From: Gemmatimonas sp.
GTDB lineage: Bacteria; Gemmatimonadota; Gemmatimonadetes; Gemmatimonadales; Gemmatimonadaceae
DNA length: 64,000 bases
Assembly (NCBI GenBank): GCA_013822425.1
Contig: PNKL01000012.1
Location: forward strand, 1 to 64,000
Direction of reading: 5' to 3'
Shown here: piece after piece, positions 3,667-11,990 of the stretch
Layout of the letters: each line of letters begins with the position of its first letter
How positions within the stretch are numbered: the stretch's first letter is position 1
Position numbers and translations under genes: made by a program
The notes under the pieces: generated by a model
What the model was told of the DNA's origin: nothing
Databases searched by the model: none
The model's input: the letters and a program-made list of their open reading frames with translations, nothing else

Positions 3667-3691
3667 AAAAGCCGCGCTTCAGGCAACGCGG
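3667..3691 (-). terminator. weak terminator-like hairpin at the end of the membrane acetyltransferase gene
   Basis: Minus-strand stem CCGCG / CGCGG with a 10-nt loop followed by CTTTT. It overlaps the stop codon of the gene ending at 3679. The stem is only 5 bp, so the call is tentative. Confidence 0.3.
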
Positions 3692-4587
3692 TTGGGTCTC
3701 GTACCGCTCCTCTCCTGTCGCCAGCCCAGTACAACTCGCTCTCGATTCCACTCCGGTATCAACGCTCGCGCGTTAGCGATGACCTGTTCCATCGCGCACA
3801 CGTAAAGGGGGAACGGATCACGGCGATCGAGCTGCGCGGAGTGCCGCAAGAAGCCGAACTTCTGGAGCAACGCCTCGCCTTCCGATGACGCCGCCTCGGC
3901 ATAGAGCAGCTTACCCTCTAGAGGAGCATAGTAGTGCTGAAGGTAGTCCTGCATCGCCCAGATCAGTCGATATGCGTGCAGCGGTCCCGCTCCAGAACAC
4001 GAATCCGACACGGCGATGCCTGCCAAGTACAGACGTCGCGCTCGTCGCGCGGGCAGGGCACCGAGAATGTGCTCGCGCCGAATATCGTGCTCACCGCAAC
4101 GTCCCTCGACGAGCATATCCATGAAACTCGTCTTCAGGGGAAAGACATCGAAATAGCCAGCAATCTTTCGCGTGCGGTCGAAGAGACAGACAAGAAGATT
4201 CGGGTTTACGCTAAGCCACTGCTCATAGAGGTCAGGCGACAGTGGCTTGACTTCCGGATAGACGCACGCAGCCAAGCTGTTGACTTCCAACACATGTTTG
4301 TGATCTGCCGTGCAACTGATGAGCACCTGTGATCCACCAAGTTGCTCCTCAGCCAGCAACTCCGCGATCGGCATCGCACGCGGACGCTCTCGCATCCACG
4401 CGACGCATCCAGCAATTACGACGCTGGTGCCCATCGTGATCACGGACAACCGTGCCGTGATTGCGATCCCTGGCATGAGGTCGATCACGGCAGCGACGAC
4501 GCCGATAAGGACCACGAAGGACGCGCCCCAGAGAACGATTAGACGCCACCCTCGGGCCCTGACGCGCCGTACTATCTCGGAGAACAT
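3679..4587 (-). CDS. membrane-anchored protein with GNAT-like acetyltransferase domain
   Basis: 302 residues from the ATG at 4587 (an upstream start at 4617 is also in frame). Two hydrophobic helices near the N-terminus ('LIVLWGASFVVLIGVVAAVI' and 'ITMGTSVVIAGCVAW') predict a two-pass anchor. The cytosolic part resembles a GNAT fold: strand 'RRLYLAGIAVSDS', a helix, then 'LLYAEAASSEGEALLQKFGF' matching the strand5-helix4 region. The usual R/QxxGxG/A acetyl-CoA loop is not clear, so catalysis is uncertain. It overlaps the end of the soluble acetyltransferase gene by 16 bp and is probably coupled to it. GC is visibly lower than in the housekeeping genes, which suggests transfer with the island. 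Substrate unknown. Confidence 0.55.
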   Translation of the reverse strand: MFSEIVRRVRARGWRLIVLWGASFVVLIGVVAAVIDLMPGIAITARLSVITMGTSVVIAGCVAWMRERPRAMPIAELLAEEQLGGSQVLISCTADHKHVLEVNSLAACVYPEVKPLSPDLYEQWLSVNPNLLVCLFDRTRKIAGYFDVFPLKTSFMDMLVEGRCGEHDIRREHILGALPARRARRLYLAGIAVSDSCSGAGPLHAYRLIWAMQDYLQHYYAPLEGKLLYAEAASSEGEALLQKFGFLRHSAQLDRRDPFPLYVCAMEQVIANARALIPEWNRERVVLGWRQERSGTRPNRVA

Positions 4588-5054
4588 TCCCACAGATAGA
4601 AATCCTGTCCGTACCAATGGTTCTTGAGTTCCGCGATTCTTGTGAATCCGAATTGCGTGAGGACCTTCTGCGATCTAATGTTGTCTGTTCGCGTGTCACA
4701 CCAGATCTTGTGCGCACGGCGCAATGCGAGAGTCTGCTGCAGGGCCACAAGGAGCGCGTTGCCGATATGCCTACCGCGATGTTCTTCGTGAACCCCAAAC
4801 CAGCAGAGCCACACAAGGCCGTCATCGTACTTACTGATACAGAAACCGATCGGCTTCTGTCCCTCCCACGCCACGAGCACTGAATCGGCATCGGAGGCAC
4901 AAAGCGCTGTCAATTCGACGGAGCCGTACTTGGCTAGCTCCTCTGACTTCGCCCGCTCATTGTAGTACGGCAGCGGCCTGACTGTTGCCGCAACAAGAGC
5001 GGCTACCGTAGGCGACTCAGCAGCCGCAAGTCTCCTGATGCTTACGGAACTCAT
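4572..5054 (-). CDS. GNAT family N-acetyltransferase
   Basis: 160 residues from the ATG at 5054, chosen because AAAGGAG precedes it at good distance. Acetyl-CoA binding motif A is clear ('FGVHEEHRGRHIGNALL', RxxGxxxG form), followed by 'WCDTRTDNIRSQKVLTQFGF', the typical strand4-helix4-strand5 end of GNAT enzymes. It would transfer an acetyl group from acetyl-CoA to an amine; the substrate cannot be read from sequence. It is the first gene of a two-gene unit with the membrane-anchored GNAT-like protein, sitting between two DNA-methylation modules. Base composition is AT-richer than the surroundings. Confidence 0.75.
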   Translation of the reverse strand: MSSVSIRRLAAAESPTVAALVAATVRPLPYYNERAKSEELAKYGSVELTALCASDADSVLVAWEGQKPIGFCISKYDDGLVWLCWFGVHEEHRGRHIGNALLVALQQTLALRRAHKIWCDTRTDNIRSQKVLTQFGFTRIAELKNHWYGQDFYLWECSPR

Positions 5055-5267
5055 CGGTGCTCCTTTCTCCGAGTTATCACCAGCCGAGTCGAGATCGGGC
5101 GTCGCAAAGAGACCCGGTCGCGACCCTCGAAGCTCGTTCCACGGCAACGCAGCTCGCGTATCGCGATGCCCACTTCCACGTCTGCGCCGTCGGTCCAACT
5201 CCAACTCTTTGCGGCTACTGCATCAGATGGATCGAACTCGCCACGATCCGCGCCCATGACACCATCT

Positions 5268-6926
5268 TCAGCTCGTCGCGGCTCCCGCGGTGGGAGTTTG
5301 CGCATTCACCGTCGCATTATCGAGTCGCGTGACCAGATATGACACAAGGCTTAAGACATTCAGGCAGTCAAGTTCCGAGAATACTGTGGGCACCATCGAG
5401 TCCATCGGGCCGTGCGCGATGGGATTGCGAAAGCCAGTGATTAGCCCGCGCGACAAATGTGCCTGGCCCTCCTGGATATTCCTCTCTGAATCGGTCTTAA
5501 GATCGTTCAATTGTAGGTGGGGCAGTTGCACAAACGGGGGCCTCCCAAATACGCCATCGACGAGGGGTCGTCCGTCGTCCTTGAGACCGGTCAACCCGCG
5601 AATGAGTTCGCAGAAGATCTTCGAGCCCTCACTCGCGGCGTGCCCGTATTGCGCCTTCTCGTAATACTGCTTCACGCGGTCCTTCACACTAGCGTGCAGA
5701 TGTCGCCAGTGAAGCTGAGGATACTCAGGTATCAGCTCGTGAAGAGCCTTAACTATCGGAGTGAACTTCGTTAACGCGTCCTCACCTCCAAGGCTCTCAA
5801 TTATGCTCCCCGCACTCGCCCGAACGTCCGCCGGCATTGTACTAAGCCATGCATGCGTATCTATGCCCGTGGCCGCCTTAAACTCTTCCCCCTTCTTCTC
5901 CTTGCGTTTCTTTCTCCACTCGACGTTCACCTGCGACACGATTCCAGCCAGAAAGGTCCTCAGCTCAACCATTTCTGGATTATCCCAATCGAGTGATTGT
6001 CGGTTGGTCGATATCACATCCTCGGCCAAGTCATCCACAAAATCGACGCTGATCCAGCCAGTCAAATACTGATAGAAATGACTTGATGCGCTAGCGGAAA
6101 AGAACTCGGGCGCATTCACCAGCTTCGTGCGCGCAAAGAGCGCTATGCCTCGAAGGCCGGAGGCGGGCGTGAGTGGCGTCCGTGCCGTGATAAGCGAACC
6201 CGTGATCTTGCCGAAGTAGGGCGACTCCTTTGGAATGAACATGGAATCGCTCACATCCCAAGTAAATTCGGCATCCAGGGTACGAAATCGCCGCTTATTG
6301 TCGAGCGCGATGCGGTCGCCATTTGACGCCTCGATCAGAACGCCGAAAGACTTCTCGAAAATGAAGAGGCGCGAAAGGCTATCGGCGAGTCCCCCAGCAT
6401 CGAAAGGTGACGTTCGCTTTAGTCCCGCCAACGATACCTTCGTGCCATTCTCCTCATCAGTCGGCGCATCAACTTCCATCGCCCTAGGCCTGTACTCGCC
6501 CTTCGCATCATTGAGCTCATTCCAGTCAAGCACGAGCACATTGCGCTTCTTATCGCGACAAGTGTCAATGGTAATTGTCGCCGCAAGCCCGAAGAGTGCG
6601 AGCTTGCCGAGCCCCTTCTTGCCTATTCGCTTTCGGCCAAACTTTGGCGAAACTCCGTCTCCGTCGCCGGAGCGTCTGTTTCTACCGATCACCAGAAACT
6701 TGTCGTTGATTTCATCCCGCGTCAGGCCATCGCCGTTGTCGACGACAACGATTCCCGTGGGTGCACCATTCTCCTCCTCAAGAGTGATGGTCACAAGCGA
6801 TGCGTCTGCGTCGTAGGCGTTCGCCACAATCTCGGCGATTGCGGGAGGCAGTGTGGAGTACATGCGCACGCCGAGATGCTTAATCGTGCGTGGGTCAAAC
6901 TTCATCAAGAATGGAGACTCAGCCAT
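5268..6926 (-). CDS. MORC/Hsp90-type GHKL ATPase with C-terminal Hypoth_ymh-like domain
   Basis: 552 residues. The N-terminal GHKL ATPase has the N box 'EIVANAYDADA' (E32, N36), G1 box 'VDNGDGL' (D63) and the lid/G2 region 'RKRIGKKGLGKLALFG' (about 99-113). Residues ~210-330 fit the S5-like middle domain. The C-terminus ends with 'LSRGLITGFRNPIAHG', the pattern of the TIGR02391/Hypoth_ymh domain often found in defence genes. Iyer, Abhiman and Aravind described such paraMORC ATPases as partners of restriction-modification systems. Its ATG (6926) lies inside the end of the second methylase gene (8-bp overlap), so the two are co-translated. Proposed role: ATP-driven clamp or loader in modification-dependent DNA restriction; no nuclease domain is evident. 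Low GC suggests transfer. Confidence 0.8.
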   Translation of the reverse strand: MAESPFLMKFDPRTIKHLGVRMYSTLPPAIAEIVANAYDADASLVTITLEEENGAPTGIVVVDNGDGLTRDEINDKFLVIGRNRRSGDGDGVSPKFGRKRIGKKGLGKLALFGLAATITIDTCRDKKRNVLVLDWNELNDAKGEYRPRAMEVDAPTDEENGTKVSLAGLKRTSPFDAGGLADSLSRLFIFEKSFGVLIEASNGDRIALDNKRRFRTLDAEFTWDVSDSMFIPKESPYFGKITGSLITARTPLTPASGLRGIALFARTKLVNAPEFFSASASSHFYQYLTGWISVDFVDDLAEDVISTNRQSLDWDNPEMVELRTFLAGIVSQVNVEWRKKRKEKKGEEFKAATGIDTHAWLSTMPADVRASAGSIIESLGGEDALTKFTPIVKALHELIPEYPQLHWRHLHASVKDRVKQYYEKAQYGHAASEGSKIFCELIRGLTGLKDDGRPLVDGVFGRPPFVQLPHLQLNDLKTDSERNIQEGQAHLSRGLITGFRNPIAHGPMDSMVPTVFSELDCLNVLSLVSYLVTRLDNATVNAQTPTAGAATS

Positions 6927-7947
6927 GTCGCCGCCGTTCTCTCAGAGCTAGCGAATGTGCGCGAATGAATGCAGGAGGAAGTGCGTTGCCGATCATTTCC
7001 GCCAGCTTCACCTTGCCGATATTGGCAGGGAACTTGTAGGTAAGAGGAAACGACTGAAGAAGTGCGGCCTCGCGAAGGGTAATTGCCCGATTCTCGCTCG
7101 GATGCAAGAAACGACCCTTTGATGGGTTGAAGCACCCCGTCGTGATCGTGGGAGCAACCTCGTCCCACGCCATTCGACCGTATACATCTCCGAATCCGTC
7201 AGATTCGCCGTGACACTTGAGCGTGAGATGCGCTGGCAGTGACGAGCGCCCTCCGCCGTCTTTGGGTATATTTCGGATCCTCTCGCGAACTCGCACCGAA
7301 CGGTGCTCTGGCAGATCATGCAACGCATCGCCGCTGCGACCGGCGGGTCCCAATAGTCCAATAGCCTCGCGCACTGTGACAAGCCGACAGACTTCGTCTG
7401 CCAACCGGGGCTCACTCACGCGACTGGCGATCACCACCGCTCGCCTGCGGCGCTGAGGAACGCCGTACTGCGCAACGTTCAGCACGCGTGCCTTGATGAC
7501 GTAACCCGCGTTCTTCAGCGCTTGAGTGAAGAGCCTATGGCGCCTGTCGCTGATCAAGCGCGGAACGTTCTCCAGCATGACATGCCTCGGCCACAGCTCA
7601 AGCACTAGGCGCTGGAACTCGAAGATCAGATCGTTTCGTTCATCCCGTACCCTTCGCCTGCCGTTCTTCGTACGTAGCCGAGAGAAACCTTGGCACGGCG
7701 GACATCCACCAAGCAGATCAAGCTCTCCCTTCGCCAGATTCAGTGCATGGAGAATCGACTCGGCCGTGACCTGTGAGATGTCCTCTCTCCATACTTGCAC
7801 GGAGGGATGATTGAGCGTGTAAACGTCCGCGGCGCGTGCATCGATTTCGACAGCACCAATCACATTGTATCCTGCTTGCTTGAAACCTTCTGTCATGCCG
7901 CCGCAGCCAGCGAAGCAGTCAAAAGCCGTGGCCTGATGTTTCGGCAT
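6919..7947 (-). CDS. DNA cytosine-5 methyltransferase (second, non-Dcm type)
   Basis: 342 residues from the ATG at 7947, preferred over the ATG at 8004 because AGGAG lies just upstream. Motif I is 'AFDCFAGCGGMTEGF', motif IV 'GGCPPCQGFS' with the catalytic Cys, motif VI 'LENVPRL', motif VIII 'GVPQRRRRAVVIA' and motif X 'IGNALPPAFI'. It belongs to a different branch from the Dcm gene at 2256-3521 (CxPCQGFS form, no HTH) and its recognition site cannot be inferred. The gene runs directly into the MORC-type ATPase gene with an 8-bp overlap, so the pair forms one unit. Confidence 0.9.
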   Translation of the reverse strand: MPKHQATAFDCFAGCGGMTEGFKQAGYNVIGAVEIDARAADVYTLNHPSVQVWREDISQVTAESILHALNLAKGELDLLGGCPPCQGFSRLRTKNGRRRVRDERNDLIFEFQRLVLELWPRHVMLENVPRLISDRRHRLFTQALKNAGYVIKARVLNVAQYGVPQRRRRAVVIASRVSEPRLADEVCRLVTVREAIGLLGPAGRSGDALHDLPEHRSVRVRERIRNIPKDGGGRSSLPAHLTLKCHGESDGFGDVYGRMAWDEVAPTITTGCFNPSKGRFLHPSENRAITLREAALLQSFPLTYKFPANIGKVKLAEMIGNALPPAFIRAHSLALRERRRHG

Positions 7948-8141
7948 GCTCTCCTGGACCGTCTCGTGTGCAGGCAGGTCGGTTCGAATCGGCTCGGTGC
8001 GCATATCGCCTGCACTCCACTTGTTGTTTCACTCGGTGACTATTCCATCTGATGCGAGGACGCTTTCGCCTGTTTGTGCGAGGAAGACCGCGACACGGCG
8101 ATCCGGCCGGACTGCAGAGGGCGCCAAACATGCCGAATTCA

Positions 8142-8209: not shown

Positions 8210-11200
8210 TCACCCGCACTCCGAAAACCCACAAGTATGACACTTCACACACCCCTCCGCATACTCCAGCTGCGACCCACAATCCGGGCACGACCCAATA
8301 AACTCCCCCGTGTCCCGCATGTTCCGCTCCATCTGCGGCTGCGCGCTGGTCGCGTGCACCATCACCGGCACGGGCACCTGAGCGGAGGCGGGCGTTGTCT
8401 GCTGCTGCACGTGCGTGGTCAGCAGGTCCTGCTGCACTCCCTGCTTGTCCTGCCACCACTCGTACAGCGCCTGACCCACGGCGTCGGGCATGCTCAGCAC
8501 CTTGTTGGGGCCGAGGCCCACCGCACGGTCGCTCGATATGCCGCGCAGCTGCTTGTGGATCTCCATCATCGGGATCCCGCTCCGCAGCGCCAGGCTCAGC
8601 ATCCGCCCCAGCGCCTCGGCGTCCGCCATCGCGCTGCCGCCGGCCTTGCCGAGGTTGATGAACACCTCAAACGGCTGCCCCTTCTCGTCTTCCGTGATGT
8701 TCACGAACATCACGCCCAGCGGCGTCTCCTTGCGGATCGTCGTGCCGCGCAGGCTCCCGGGACGCGACCGCTTCATGCGCCGGTTGAGGTTTTCCGCCTC
8801 GCTCTCAAACAGCAGCTTCTTGAGCCGCTCGTTCTCCATCTCGACTTCCGAGATGTGCTCCTTGAGCTCGAGCAGCTCGCCCGCATCTGCCGTCTGCCCT
8901 CTGCCGTCTGCCTTCCGCTTCTCCGCCGCATCAACCGTCGCGCCAGTACTAAGCACCTGCCCATCGCGCGACCCGTCGCGATACACCGTCACACCCTTGC
9001 AGTTGAGCTCGTACGCGAGCTCATAGATGGTGCGGACGTCGTCCTGCGTCGCGGTGTGTGCGAAGTTCGTCGTCTTGCTGATGGCCGAGTCGCAATGCTG
9101 CTGGAACGCGGCCTGCATCCTGATGTGCCACTCGGCCGGGATCTCATTGGCCGTGCGGAAGATCTCCTTGACCTTCGCGGGCACTTCGGGATGGTTGATG
9201 GTGCCGGTCTTCGCGATGCGCTCCATCAGCTCGTCGCTGTACCAGCCGCCGGCCTTGGCCATCGCCACGAAGTCCTCGTTCACGTCGGGCATCATCACGC
9301 CGGCCTGGTTGCGCATGAACGCCACGGCAAACAGGGGCTCGAGGCCCGACGAGCAGCCGGCGATGATCGAGATGGTTCCCGTGGGCGCCACCGTCGTCAC
9401 GTTGCAGTTGCGGAGCAGCCGCATGGGGCGGATGCGGTTCCCTGCCTCGTCGCGCGCGCAGGTGGCGTCGGGGCCCCAGATGCTCTGCGCCCACTCGGGG
9501 AAGGCGCCGCGCTGCTTGGCCATCAGTTCGCTCTGCGCCTTGCCCTCGACGTCGAGGAACTCCATCACTCGGCGGCCGAACTCGACGCCCTCGGGCGAGT
9601 CGTAGCGGATGCCGAGCTTGATGAGCGCGTCGGCGAAGCCCATCACGCCCAAGCCGATGCGCCGGATCTTCTTGCTCAGCGCGTCAATCTCGGGGAGCGG
9701 GTACTTGTTGACGTCAATGATGTTGTCGAGGAAGTGCGTGCTCAGCCGGATGTCGGCGCGCAACGCATCCCAGTCCATCGAGCCGTTGTGGGCGTAGATG
9801 CCGATGTTCACCGAGCCGAGGTTGCAGACGTCGTACGCAAGCAGGGGCTGCTCGCCGCAGTTGTGCACCACGAGACCGTTCGCCACGAATGAGTGGGTCA
9901 GCGGTTCGGTGAGGTCAAAGACGGGCTCCTCGCCCACCGACTCGAGCGCCAGGAACCGTGCGGTGTAGCGCTCGCGGTACGGCCCACGTGCGCCGTACGC
10001 CCCAAGCCGTGAGCGCAGGGCGTTCTGCTTGGTGGCACCCAGGAAGCCGATTTCCCGCTCAAACCGGACCACGTTGTCACGACCGATCACGAGATCGTGA
10101 TCGGCCTGGCAGTCGTACGCGCGTCCATTGAACTCCACCTGACGCGCCGGATGACGATCGGCGTACAGCTTCGAGGCGATGCCGAAGTTGAGCAGCATCC
10201 GCTGCACGTCGCGCAGCAGCGGCAGCGACACGGAGGTGAGGCGCACCGACACGCCCTTGTCGGCATTCCCGGTCACATGGCCGTCGGCCGTAAAGAGGGC
10301 CTGCAGGAAACCGATCTGCAATTGCTCCGACGCGGAGAGCACCGCGAGCGGCACTCCGCTCAACTTGGACGCGGCGGTCATGCCAAAGCGCGCGGCCACC
10401 TGCTCACGCAGGCGCGTCGAACTCACCGTCGCCAGTTGGCGCGACGCAACGTCAACGACGCCCACGGGGCGCCGGCCGGACGCGGCTGTATCCTGCGACA
10501 GGAAGGCGTTTACGTCGTTCGCGAAATCAGGCGCCATCTCGCGGTCGTCGCCCCAGAAGCCAAGTACGGCGCCATTTCCCGACTCGCCGGTGATGTGCCC
10601 ATCGGCGATGAGCCACCCCACCACACGCCCCTCGCCGGCCGTGCCCTCGGTGCCAAACCCACCCTTGCGATTCTGCAGGTGCAGCAGGTCGCCGTCACGA
10701 AGGTCCCGCGCTTCCACCCAGCCGCGCGACGTCATCAGCCGGTGATCGCCCGTCACCCGCACTTCGTACCCTTCACGCGTCGTCACGCGGTAGACAGGCT
10801 TCACGCCGGTGCGGAACGGCGTGCCCGCGGGGCCCCACTCACCCGAACCGAAACGGCCATCGAGCACCACCGACACGCCGTCGTCGCGCCCAGCCAGATC
10901 GGCAATGGGAATCAGCCCGCCGGCGGTAGACACGAGCGTGTCGCCCGTCACGCACGGGTTGGTGGCCTCGTAGGCGCCGAGGTGCGGCACCGGGTTGTAC
11001 TTGTTGGCTTCGTCAATGAAGAAGACGCCGGGCTCGCCGGTGCGCCACGCGCCCGCGATCATCTTGTCCCAGATATCCTTGGCCTTGAGCGACCCCACCA
11101 CCTGCTGTGTGGACGGGTGCACCAGCTCGTACTCGCCGTCGGCCTTGAGCGCGTCCATGAACTTGCGCGTGATGCCCACGGAGATGTTGAAGTTCACCAC

Positions 11201-11812
11201 CTGCGTCAGGTCTTCCTTGCAGGAGATGAACTCGAGGATGTCGGGGTGATCCACGCGCAGGATGCCCATGTTGGCGCCGCGGCGCGTGCCGCCCTGCTTC
11301 ACCGCCTCGGTGGAGGCGTCGTACAGCTTCATGAAACTCACCGGGCCGCTGGCCACGCCCGTGGTGCTGCGCACCATCGAGCCACTGGGGCGCAGGCGCG
11401 AGAACGAGAAGCCCGTGCCGCCACCGCTCTGGTGGATGAGCGCCATGGACGTCAGCGTGTCGTAGATGCCGTCGTGCCCGTTGCTGAGCGCATCGGCCAC
11501 CGGGAGCACGAAGCAGGCCGAGAGCTGCCCCAGGGGGCGGCCGGCGTTCATCAGCGTCGGCGAGTTGGGCTCGAACCGGCGCTGGGTCATCAATTCATAG
11601 AACTGCACCGCGGTGCCGTACACCTCCTGATCCGAGGCGCCGTAGCGTCGATCCGCCTCGGCTACCACGGTCGCCACCCGCCAGAACATGTCTTCTGGTG
11701 TCTCCACCGGCTTGCCGCTCTTGTCCTTGACGAGATAGCGCTTCTCGAGGACGGTCCGCGCGTTGGCAGACAGCGAATCGGGGGAGCTGGGCGGGTTCAC
11801 GGGCAGGGGCAT
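8210..11812 (-). CDS. nrdJ: vitamin B12-dependent (class II) ribonucleotide reductase precursor with intein
   Basis: 1200-residue precursor that would splice to about 835 residues. It reduces ribonucleotides to deoxyribonucleotides with adenosylcobalamin as radical source. Visible motifs: 'SPTLMNAGRPLGQLSACFVL' with the redox Cys, 'ATNP' / 'CGEQPLL' (active-site loop, split by the intein), 'YDVCNLGSVN', 'VAPTGTISIIAG', and a C-terminal Cys-rich tail 'SCPDCGSQLEYAEGCVKCHTC'. A charged insertion with a coiled-coil stretch follows the catalytic core, partly encoded by a heptanucleotide repeat (8885-8912). The ATG at 11812 has GGAG 8 nt upstream and replaces an in-frame start 38 codons earlier. 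Monocistronic; a hairpin follows. No cobalamin riboswitch was recognised upstream. Confidence 0.96.
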   Translation of the reverse strand: MPLPVNPPSSPDSLSANARTVLEKRYLVKDKSGKPVETPEDMFWRVATVVAEADRRYGASDQEVYGTAVQFYELMTQRRFEPNSPTLMNAGRPLGQLSACFVLPVADALSNGHDGIYDTLTSMALIHQSGGGTGFSFSRLRPSGSMVRSTTGVASGPVSFMKLYDASTEAVKQGGTRRGANMGILRVDHPDILEFISCKEDLTQVVNFNISVGITRKFMDALKADGEYELVHPSTQQVVGSLKAKDIWDKMIAGAWRTGEPGVFFIDEANKYNPVPHLGAYEATNPCVTGDTLVSTAGGLIPIADLAGRDDGVSVVLDGRFGSGEWGPAGTPFRTGVKPVYRVTTREGYEVRVTGDHRLMTSRGWVEARDLRDGDLLHLQNRKGGFGTEGTAGEGRVVGWLIADGHITGESGNGAVLGFWGDDREMAPDFANDVNAFLSQDTAASGRRPVGVVDVASRQLATVSSTRLREQVAARFGMTAASKLSGVPLAVLSASEQLQIGFLQALFTADGHVTGNADKGVSVRLTSVSLPLLRDVQRMLLNFGIASKLYADRHPARQVEFNGRAYDCQADHDLVIGRDNVVRFEREIGFLGATKQNALRSRLGAYGARGPYRERYTARFLALESVGEEPVFDLTEPLTHSFVANGLVVHNCGEQPLLAYDVCNLGSVNIGIYAHNGSMDWDALRADIRLSTHFLDNIIDVNKYPLPEIDALSKKIRRIGLGVMGFADALIKLGIRYDSPEGVEFGRRVMEFLDVEGKAQSELMAKQRGAFPEWAQSIWGPDATCARDEAGNRIRPMRLLRNCNVTTVAPTGTISIIAGCSSGLEPLFAVAFMRNQAGVMMPDVNEDFVAMAKAGGWYSDELMERIAKTGTINHPEVPAKVKEIFRTANEIPAEWHIRMQAAFQQHCDSAISKTTNFAHTATQDDVRTIYELAYELNCKGVTVYRDGSRDGQVLSTGATVDAAEKRKADGRGQTADAGELLELKEHISEVEMENERLKKLLFESEAENLNRRMKRSRPGSLRGTTIRKETPLGVMFVNITEDEKGQPFEVFINLGKAGGSAMADAEALGRMLSLALRSGIPMMEIHKQLRGISSDRAVGLGPNKVLSMPDAVGQALYEWWQDKQGVQQDLLTTHVQQQTTPASAQVPVPVMVHATSAQPQMERNMRDTGEFIGSCPDCGSQLEYAEGCVKCHTCGFSECG
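8885..8912 (-). repeat. heptanucleotide repeat GGCAGAN x4 inside nrdJ
   Basis: On the minus strand four consecutive units GGCAGAC, GGCAGAG, GGCAGAC, GGCAGAT encode the charged insertion 'ADGRGQTADA'. Seven is not a multiple of three, so gain or loss of one unit would shift the frame of the C-terminal part of nrdJ. Related units occur at 61221-61241 and 18430-18469. Confidence 0.8.
9860..10954 (-). mobile_element. intein with LAGLIDADG homing endonuclease, in nrdJ
   Basis: 365 residues inserted between 'EATNP' and 'CGEQPLLAYDV' of the reductase. Block A begins 'CVTGDTLVSTAGG' (Cys1); block B is 'VTGDHRLMTS' with the TxxH motif; two endonuclease blocks read 'VVGWLIADGHIT' and 'LQALFTADGHVT'; block G ends 'SFVANGLVVHN' followed by the +1 Cys. 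All residues for protein splicing (Cys1, block B His, penultimate His, terminal Asn, +1 Cys) are present, so splicing and homing activity both look intact. The insertion lies exactly at the catalytic-loop Cys, a position known to attract inteins in reductases. Confidence 0.95.
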
Positions 11813-11990
11813 TTCGACTTCTCCGCAGTTATGAAAGCAGTTACAGATTTGGGGGGCTTCGTTCAGCATTTTCGACGACATCAACGCGCAGGGGCGCCAA
11901 GCTAGGCTAATCGTGAGTCCGCGCAAGAAGCGGATAACTATTTGTCAAATCACAACTTTGCGAACCAGAGTCACTTTCATGAAAAGGGCG

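Follow-up and report, generated by a model that had tools for sequence, protein, structure and literature searches.

A MORC-like GHKL ATPase with a predicted HEPN RNase domain, paired with a C5 cytosine methylase, as a candidate restriction-modification-like defence module

What might a cytosine methylase and an ATPase do together when no nuclease gene stands beside them? The question is raised by two overlapping genes of Gemmatimonas sp., located in a 64,000-nucleotide stretch of contig PNKL01000012.1 (hereafter the window). The original prediction described a C5 methylase overlapping a GHKL ATPase with a C-terminal Hypoth_ymh domain, and our analysis recovered both open reading frames at the predicted positions (Table 1). 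Both genes lie on the minus strand, the methylase gene first and the ATPase gene after it, with an overlap of 8 nt, ATGGCTGA. The methylase contains the motifs FAGCGG, PPC, ENV, QRRR and IGNA. An alternative start at 8004 is possible and would give 361 aa; the start at 7947 is favoured because homologues align from approximately residue 20–26 of the long form. The top solved-structure matches of the methylase were DNMT1 catalytic domains, which ranked above M.HaeIII and M.HhaI and were mostly confined to residues 8–179. The two domains predicted for the ATPase were both detected, HATPase_c_3 at residues 26–142 (E 1.5e-20) and Hypoth_Ymh (PF09509) at residues 408–535 (E 1.8e-22); these two matches, and that of the methylase to PF00145, exceed their cut-offs by a wide margin. 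Downstream of the ATPase gene, the same strand encodes a GNAT acetyltransferase, a 312-aa protein with zero matches across Pfam, PADLOC and NCBIfam, and a complete EcoRII-type set. A promoter and terminator scan gave a result no better than that for shuffled sequence.

Table 1. Coordinates of the gene pair, its domains and the surrounding features in the window
Feature	Position	Strand	Basis or remark
C5 cytosine DNA methylase	6919..7947	-	PF00145 E 2.5e-54; 342 aa from start 7947
GHKL ATPase with C-terminal Ymh HEPN domain, 552 aa	5268..6926	-	Pfam, NCBIfam, AlphaFold2 mean pLDDT 86
ATPase residues 1–345: GHKL ATPase and S5-type transducer (sensor half)	5892..6926	-	NCBIfam NF050001; MORC3 ATPase module Z 22.8
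Ymh HEPN domain, predicted RNase effector, residues ~408–536	5319..5705	-	PF09509 residues 408–535; TIGR02391
HEPN Rx4H motif RNPIAH (R500...H505)	5412..5429	-	R500 and H505 in 77/77 aligned homologues
EcoRII-type system, complete: EcoRII nuclease (N and C domains), Vsr, Dcm-like methylase with N-terminal helix-turn-helix	604-3527	-	Pfam
312-aa protein between gene pair and EcoRII island	3679-4617	-	Overlaps GNAT gene (4572-5204)
Ribonucleotide reductase with intein bearing LAGLIDADG domain	8210-11926	-	Upstream of pair; Pfam

The GHKL fold is common to Hsp90, MutL and GyrB, and GHKL ATPases typically dimerise via the N-terminal domain upon ATP binding. The window ATPase has GHKL ATP-binding motifs followed by an S5-type transducer, both features of MORC and paraMORC GHKL proteins. 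ATP-site residues conserved in the alignment of 77 proteins comprise E32, N36, D63, G65, G67, G102-K108 and T162; nine GHKL ATP-site residues occur in all 77 full-length homologues and N36 in 76 of them. The AlphaFold2 model, a monomer computed with 77 sequences in the alignment, shows an ATPase and transducer fold and, after it, a C-terminal part made up mainly of helices. Among solved structures it came closest to the ATPase module of MORC3 (5ix2; Z 22.8, rmsd 3.9, 298 residues); MORC2 and Hsp90 ranked just behind. A standard MutL/HtpG housekeeping architecture, which the original prediction had set against its own reading, was not what we found: the first ~350 residues resemble MORC and the C-terminus is of the HEPN type. 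MORC proteins proper carry a GhXhhpXXRhl motif in the S5 domain (PMC2292703), where residues 260–270 of the window ATPase read GIALFARTKLV, with K in place of R and A at the polar position; across the 77 homologues, residue 268 is K in 40 and R in 37. Among BFVD fold matches to the ATPase model, phage RIIA proteins were frequent (13–17% identity, TM ~0.4), and interference of RIIA-like GHKL proteins with host GHKL sensors is a speculative idea.

The C-terminal domain was assigned to Ymh by PF09509 (79.9 bits against a cut-off of 25) and TIGR02391 (107.4 bits against a cut-off of 39.45). Ymh is one of the families placed in the HEPN superfamily of predicted RNases (PMC3710099). The RNPIAH sequence at residues 500–505 fits the HEPN Rx4H catalytic motif, and its R and H are invariant among the full-length homologues (Table 1). 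The catalytic residues of HEPN and GHKL are both conserved, so selection acts on each of the two active sites. A HEPN RNase requires a pair of domains to build a composite active site. The same HEPN family is present in the PADLOC PD-Lambda-3_B models (24 of 24 members). Foldseek and VIA comparison of the whole model returned matches covering the ATPase half only, leaving the HEPN part without a fold match, and the HEPN alignment, run as a profile against PDB sequences, produced chance matches alone and no solved Ymh structure. The suggestion that the C-terminal domain cuts is upheld insofar as this domain is a predicted nuclease, but one predicted to be of the HEPN RNase type rather than a hidden DNase; RNase activity of Ymh is predicted at the level of the family.

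Searches of viral contigs and genome contigs with the single protein found no relatives. A two-sequence alignment of the window ATPase and its gonococcal relative was then used as the query against 84,980 species genomes, yielding 310 relatives; the best 80 of the 310 were kept, and one viral-contig locus brought the set to 81 loci, picked by the ATPase alone with the methylase not used in selection. In 72 of these 81 loci, from many phyla and in several gene orders, the ATPase gene has a C5 methylase gene at a distance of 200 nt or less (same strand in 68; upstream in 64, downstream in 8), and the spacing was mostly −14 to +15 nt. A convergent arrangement was seen in Campylobacterota, and Vsr lies within 1.5 kb of the ATPase in 32 of the 81 loci. 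Nine loci have no methylase within 200 nt. Three of them (L094, L098 and L103) have one a single gene further on, with a restriction endonuclease between; L076 and L087 carry one farther off in the locus, L058 has one on the opposite strand, in L093 and L054 one lies ~7–8 kb away on apparently the same contig (judged for L054 by the contig number), and L112 is cut by the contig end. Pairwise distances among the methylases and among the ATPases correlate (r 0.64, with 0 of 2000 permutations as high), which is what genes travelling together would give. With 72 of 81 loci showing it, the association is not due to chance. The original prediction called the methylase an orphan; this needs qualification, as the ATPase-HEPN gene constantly accompanies methylases of this family, and the concern that homologues might consistently lack methylases proved unfounded. 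A linked DNA methylase, a feature of type II restriction-modification (R-M) systems, is present both in the window and in most of the homologous loci. At positions 2347–6934 of L087, a HEF_HK / Response_reg_2 pair and a C5 methylase lie directly upstream of the GHKL-HEPN gene; such pairs with a C5 methylase are the two-component-like elements of PMC8011034, and this locus holds two GHKL systems within one island.

The neighbourhoods were searched for a nuclease partner. All-against-all comparison of neighbours in the 81 loci yielded families shared by 8 loci at most; this comparison and a Pfam tally revealed no constant third gene and no recurrent nuclease. The third genes are mixed and include N6/N4 methylases, AAA, HIT, single HindVP, HinP1I and Mrr genes, and housekeeping genes, and of the 58 units that do not lie at contig ends, 21 have no third same-strand gene within 100 nt. 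Recognisable restriction endonucleases occur in a few loci, namely HpaII in L103 (Pfam) and in L112 and L058 (similarity to L103), a BsaWI-like enzyme in L094 and, by similarity, in L098, and HNH in L093, in family searches that diverse or divergent type II enzymes could escape. The ATPase-HEPN fusion can therefore coexist with a true R-M system and usually occurs without a recognisable one. Borrowing of the neighbouring EcoRII, which the original prediction had offered as an option, was dropped: EcoRII had no match in any of the 81 homologous loci, and the window EcoRII has its own methylase and Vsr. The broader description, in which a MORC-like ATPase goes with a C5 methylase, no nuclease gene accompanies them and experimental tests are apparently lacking, agrees with our results; a literature search that did not extend to most subscription journals found no experiment on any member, and only PMC3710099 joining HEPN and GHKL in this sense.

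The sensor half provides a link to known restriction enzymes. Residues 7–379 of the window protein match positions 2–398 of the 659-position NCBIfam profile NF050001 (BbrUII/HgiDII), and the match then stops; at 220 bits, below the cut-off of 550, the window protein is not a whole-length member. Genuine members, above the NCBIfam cut-off, were found in the phylum of the window and in viral contigs (L005, L006, L116 and L117). Beyond the sensor half, these carry a domain whose RxD...ExK core is the signature of PD-(D/E)xK nucleases; in the window protein its place is occupied by the Ymh HEPN domain. The PD-(D/E)xK nuclease of the BbrUII-type proteins rests on sequence motifs, because a structure model (pLDDT 72) gave GHKL matches only. 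The four genuine enzymes sit beside C5 methylases, and methylase relatives directly adjoin BbrUII-like GHKL genes in G004 and G026, two genomes from the family to which the window belongs. The tree built from the sensor half separates the 39 HEPN proteins from the rest at a branch with support 78; a second branch, with support 99, groups them with the PD-(D/E)xK proteins L003 and L004 and leaves out every other PD-(D/E)xK protein. A single replacement of the DNA nuclease by HEPN would explain this pattern, the direction of change depending on the midpoint root of the tree.

The pair has spread laterally, and its distribution is patchy. GC content is 55% for the ATPase gene and 58% for the methylase gene, versus 69% for the window beyond 12 kb. 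Matches to the ATPase were found in 0 of 9 other genomes of the genus and matches to the methylase in 0 of 10, and the other sampled genomes of the phylum held no full-length ATPase match. Among the best 80 of the 310 relatives, the nearest (69–74% identity) come from metagenome-assembled genomes (MAGs) of Alphaproteobacteria, Desulfobacteraceae, Phycisphaerales and others, and the pair recurs from Patescibacteria to Pseudomonadota and in an archaeal MAG. The pair was most likely acquired laterally. In Neisseria gonorrhoeae, one locus (L002) encodes a methylase, a GHKL-HEPN protein (38–40% identity) and Vsr, in that order; the methylase is broken, the GHKL-HEPN gene has two in-frame stops, and Vsr is open. 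For the gonococcal system NgoAXIII, present in all strains, only a Vsr gene and a truncated methylase have been described, with the target unknown (PMC6789123). L002 is apparently NgoAXIII, as indicated by gene content and arrangement rather than by an accession match, and the silent locus is, judged by its sequence, a decayed member of the methylase/GHKL-HEPN group. The GHKL-HEPN gene is also broken or shortened in L071, L092 and L111, the methylase being whole in the two where the contig end spares it.

Based on these results, we consider it somewhat better than an even chance that the pair is a self-contained, restriction-modification-like defence module that joins methylation sensing, a GHKL clamp, HEPN RNA cleavage and abortive infection. 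The C5 methylase would mark host DNA at its own target site, and its partner, an ATP-dependent dimer clamp of the MORC/BbrUII type, would sense DNA without the mark. Unmethylated DNA is inferred as the trigger because the sensor is homologous to that of restriction enzymes and the linked methylase is constant. As GHKL proteins dimerise with ATP and a HEPN site takes two domains, a clamp closed by ATP is predicted to switch on RNA cleavage: closure would pair two C-terminal HEPN domains into a composite RNase site, which may then cut RNA, halt growth and abort the infection. Vsr, where present, would repair T:G mismatches arising from deaminated 5-methylcytosine. This module is supported by the conserved residues, the methylase pairing, the lack of a recurrent nuclease, the BbrUII/HgiDII-like sensor, the single effector change, the HEPN family of PD-Lambda-3_B and the defence protein VcSduA. 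More tentatively, with a probability somewhat short of even, the pair may represent a widespread class of modification systems in which missing 5-methylcytosine at the methylase's target sites triggers an RNase in place of a DNase, by way of HEPN replacing the BbrUII-type DNA-nuclease domain.

The main rival reading, which we regard as unlikely, is a PrrC-like guard: the GHKL-HEPN protein would be silenced by intact R-M, either its own methylase or a neighbouring complete system, and would fire when a phage disables R-M, with no reading of methylation itself. This was the proposal made in 2013 for Ymh-paraMORC fusions (PMC3710099). The restriction enzymes beside several units (HpaII-type in L103, BsaWI-like in L094 and L098, and the single HindVP and HinP1I genes) also fit a guard role, as does the complete EcoRII system ~1.7 kb from the pair in the window; however, most units have no recognisable restriction enzyme to guard, EcoRII is absent from every homologous locus, and restriction enzymes that recognise DNA have a homologous sensor half. 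The same sensor homology and the constant methylase partner could point to a true type II restriction enzyme, in which the HEPN-bearing protein cleaves DNA, either because its HEPN domain has an atypical activity or by recruiting a nuclease encoded at another place in the genome. We consider this decidedly unlikely, given that HEPN stands where that family has its PD-(D/E)xK core, that the invariant motif is the RNase-type Rx4H, and that no nuclease is a constant partner.

A role mainly in addiction, with the methylase as an antitoxin acting through DNA methylation, loss of the pair killing the cell and phage defence being secondary, would suit the mobile, patchy distribution. It would also suit the gonococcal locus, where methylase and GHKL-HEPN are both broken and Vsr is open, and the three loci with a damaged GHKL-HEPN gene and, away from the contig end, a whole methylase. 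Such decay cases are few, however, and the same mechanism would serve defence, hence the two are hard to tell apart by sequence; we judge addiction as the main role to be very unlikely. A housekeeping or regulatory function, as a chaperone-like or repair ATPase of the MutL/HtpG type, could draw on the shared GHKL fold but is extremely improbable for a protein with a HEPN effector, an invariant motif and a constant methylase partner, found patchily across phyla in a region of low local GC.

If the self-contained module is correct, methylation-based recognition of self and non-self would be wired to suicide by RNA cleavage in just two genes, by a plain swap of the effector domain. Restriction would then act by cleaving RNA rather than by cutting the invader's DNA, and the infected cell would be stopped. 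The MORC-like ATPases of bacteria, related to eukaryotic proteins that function in silencing and chromatin, would gain a testable biochemical role, and the gonococcal R-M locus without a known target (apparently NgoAXIII) would be given content.

The closest described proteins are paraMORC ATPases fused to Ymh domains, which an in silico study of 2013 predicted in R-M neighbourhoods and proposed to be PrrC/RloC-like (PMC3710099). In them, as in the window protein, the GHKL ATPase precedes the Ymh HEPN domain, R-M genes lie nearby and an RNase suicide effector is predicted. PMC3710099 goes no further than the domain architecture; added here are the strict pairing with a C5 methylase, the usual absence of a restriction endonuclease and the sensor homology to BbrUII/HgiDII. 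BbrUII/HgiDII enzymes (NF050001) share the homologous GHKL and transducer half and the C5 methylase neighbour, but have a C-terminal PD-(D/E)xK nuclease where the window protein has HEPN. PrrC and RloC likewise fuse an ATPase to a C-terminal HEPN RNase and are linked to R-M; however, theirs is an SbcC/Rad50-like ABC ATPase in contrast to GHKL, and PrrC guards a complete type I system. The gonococcal locus has the methylase and GHKL-HEPN genes in the order of the window pair, followed by Vsr, but is decayed. VcSduA (GHKL-Shedu, paraMORC3), a GHKL ATPase with a C-terminal DNA nuclease, defends V. cholerae against phage and needs both catalytic sites (PMC12137116); unlike the window pair, it is a single gene without a methylase. 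Its nuclease is of the DUF4263 type, and it acts by direct restriction rather than by the abortive infection predicted for the pair.
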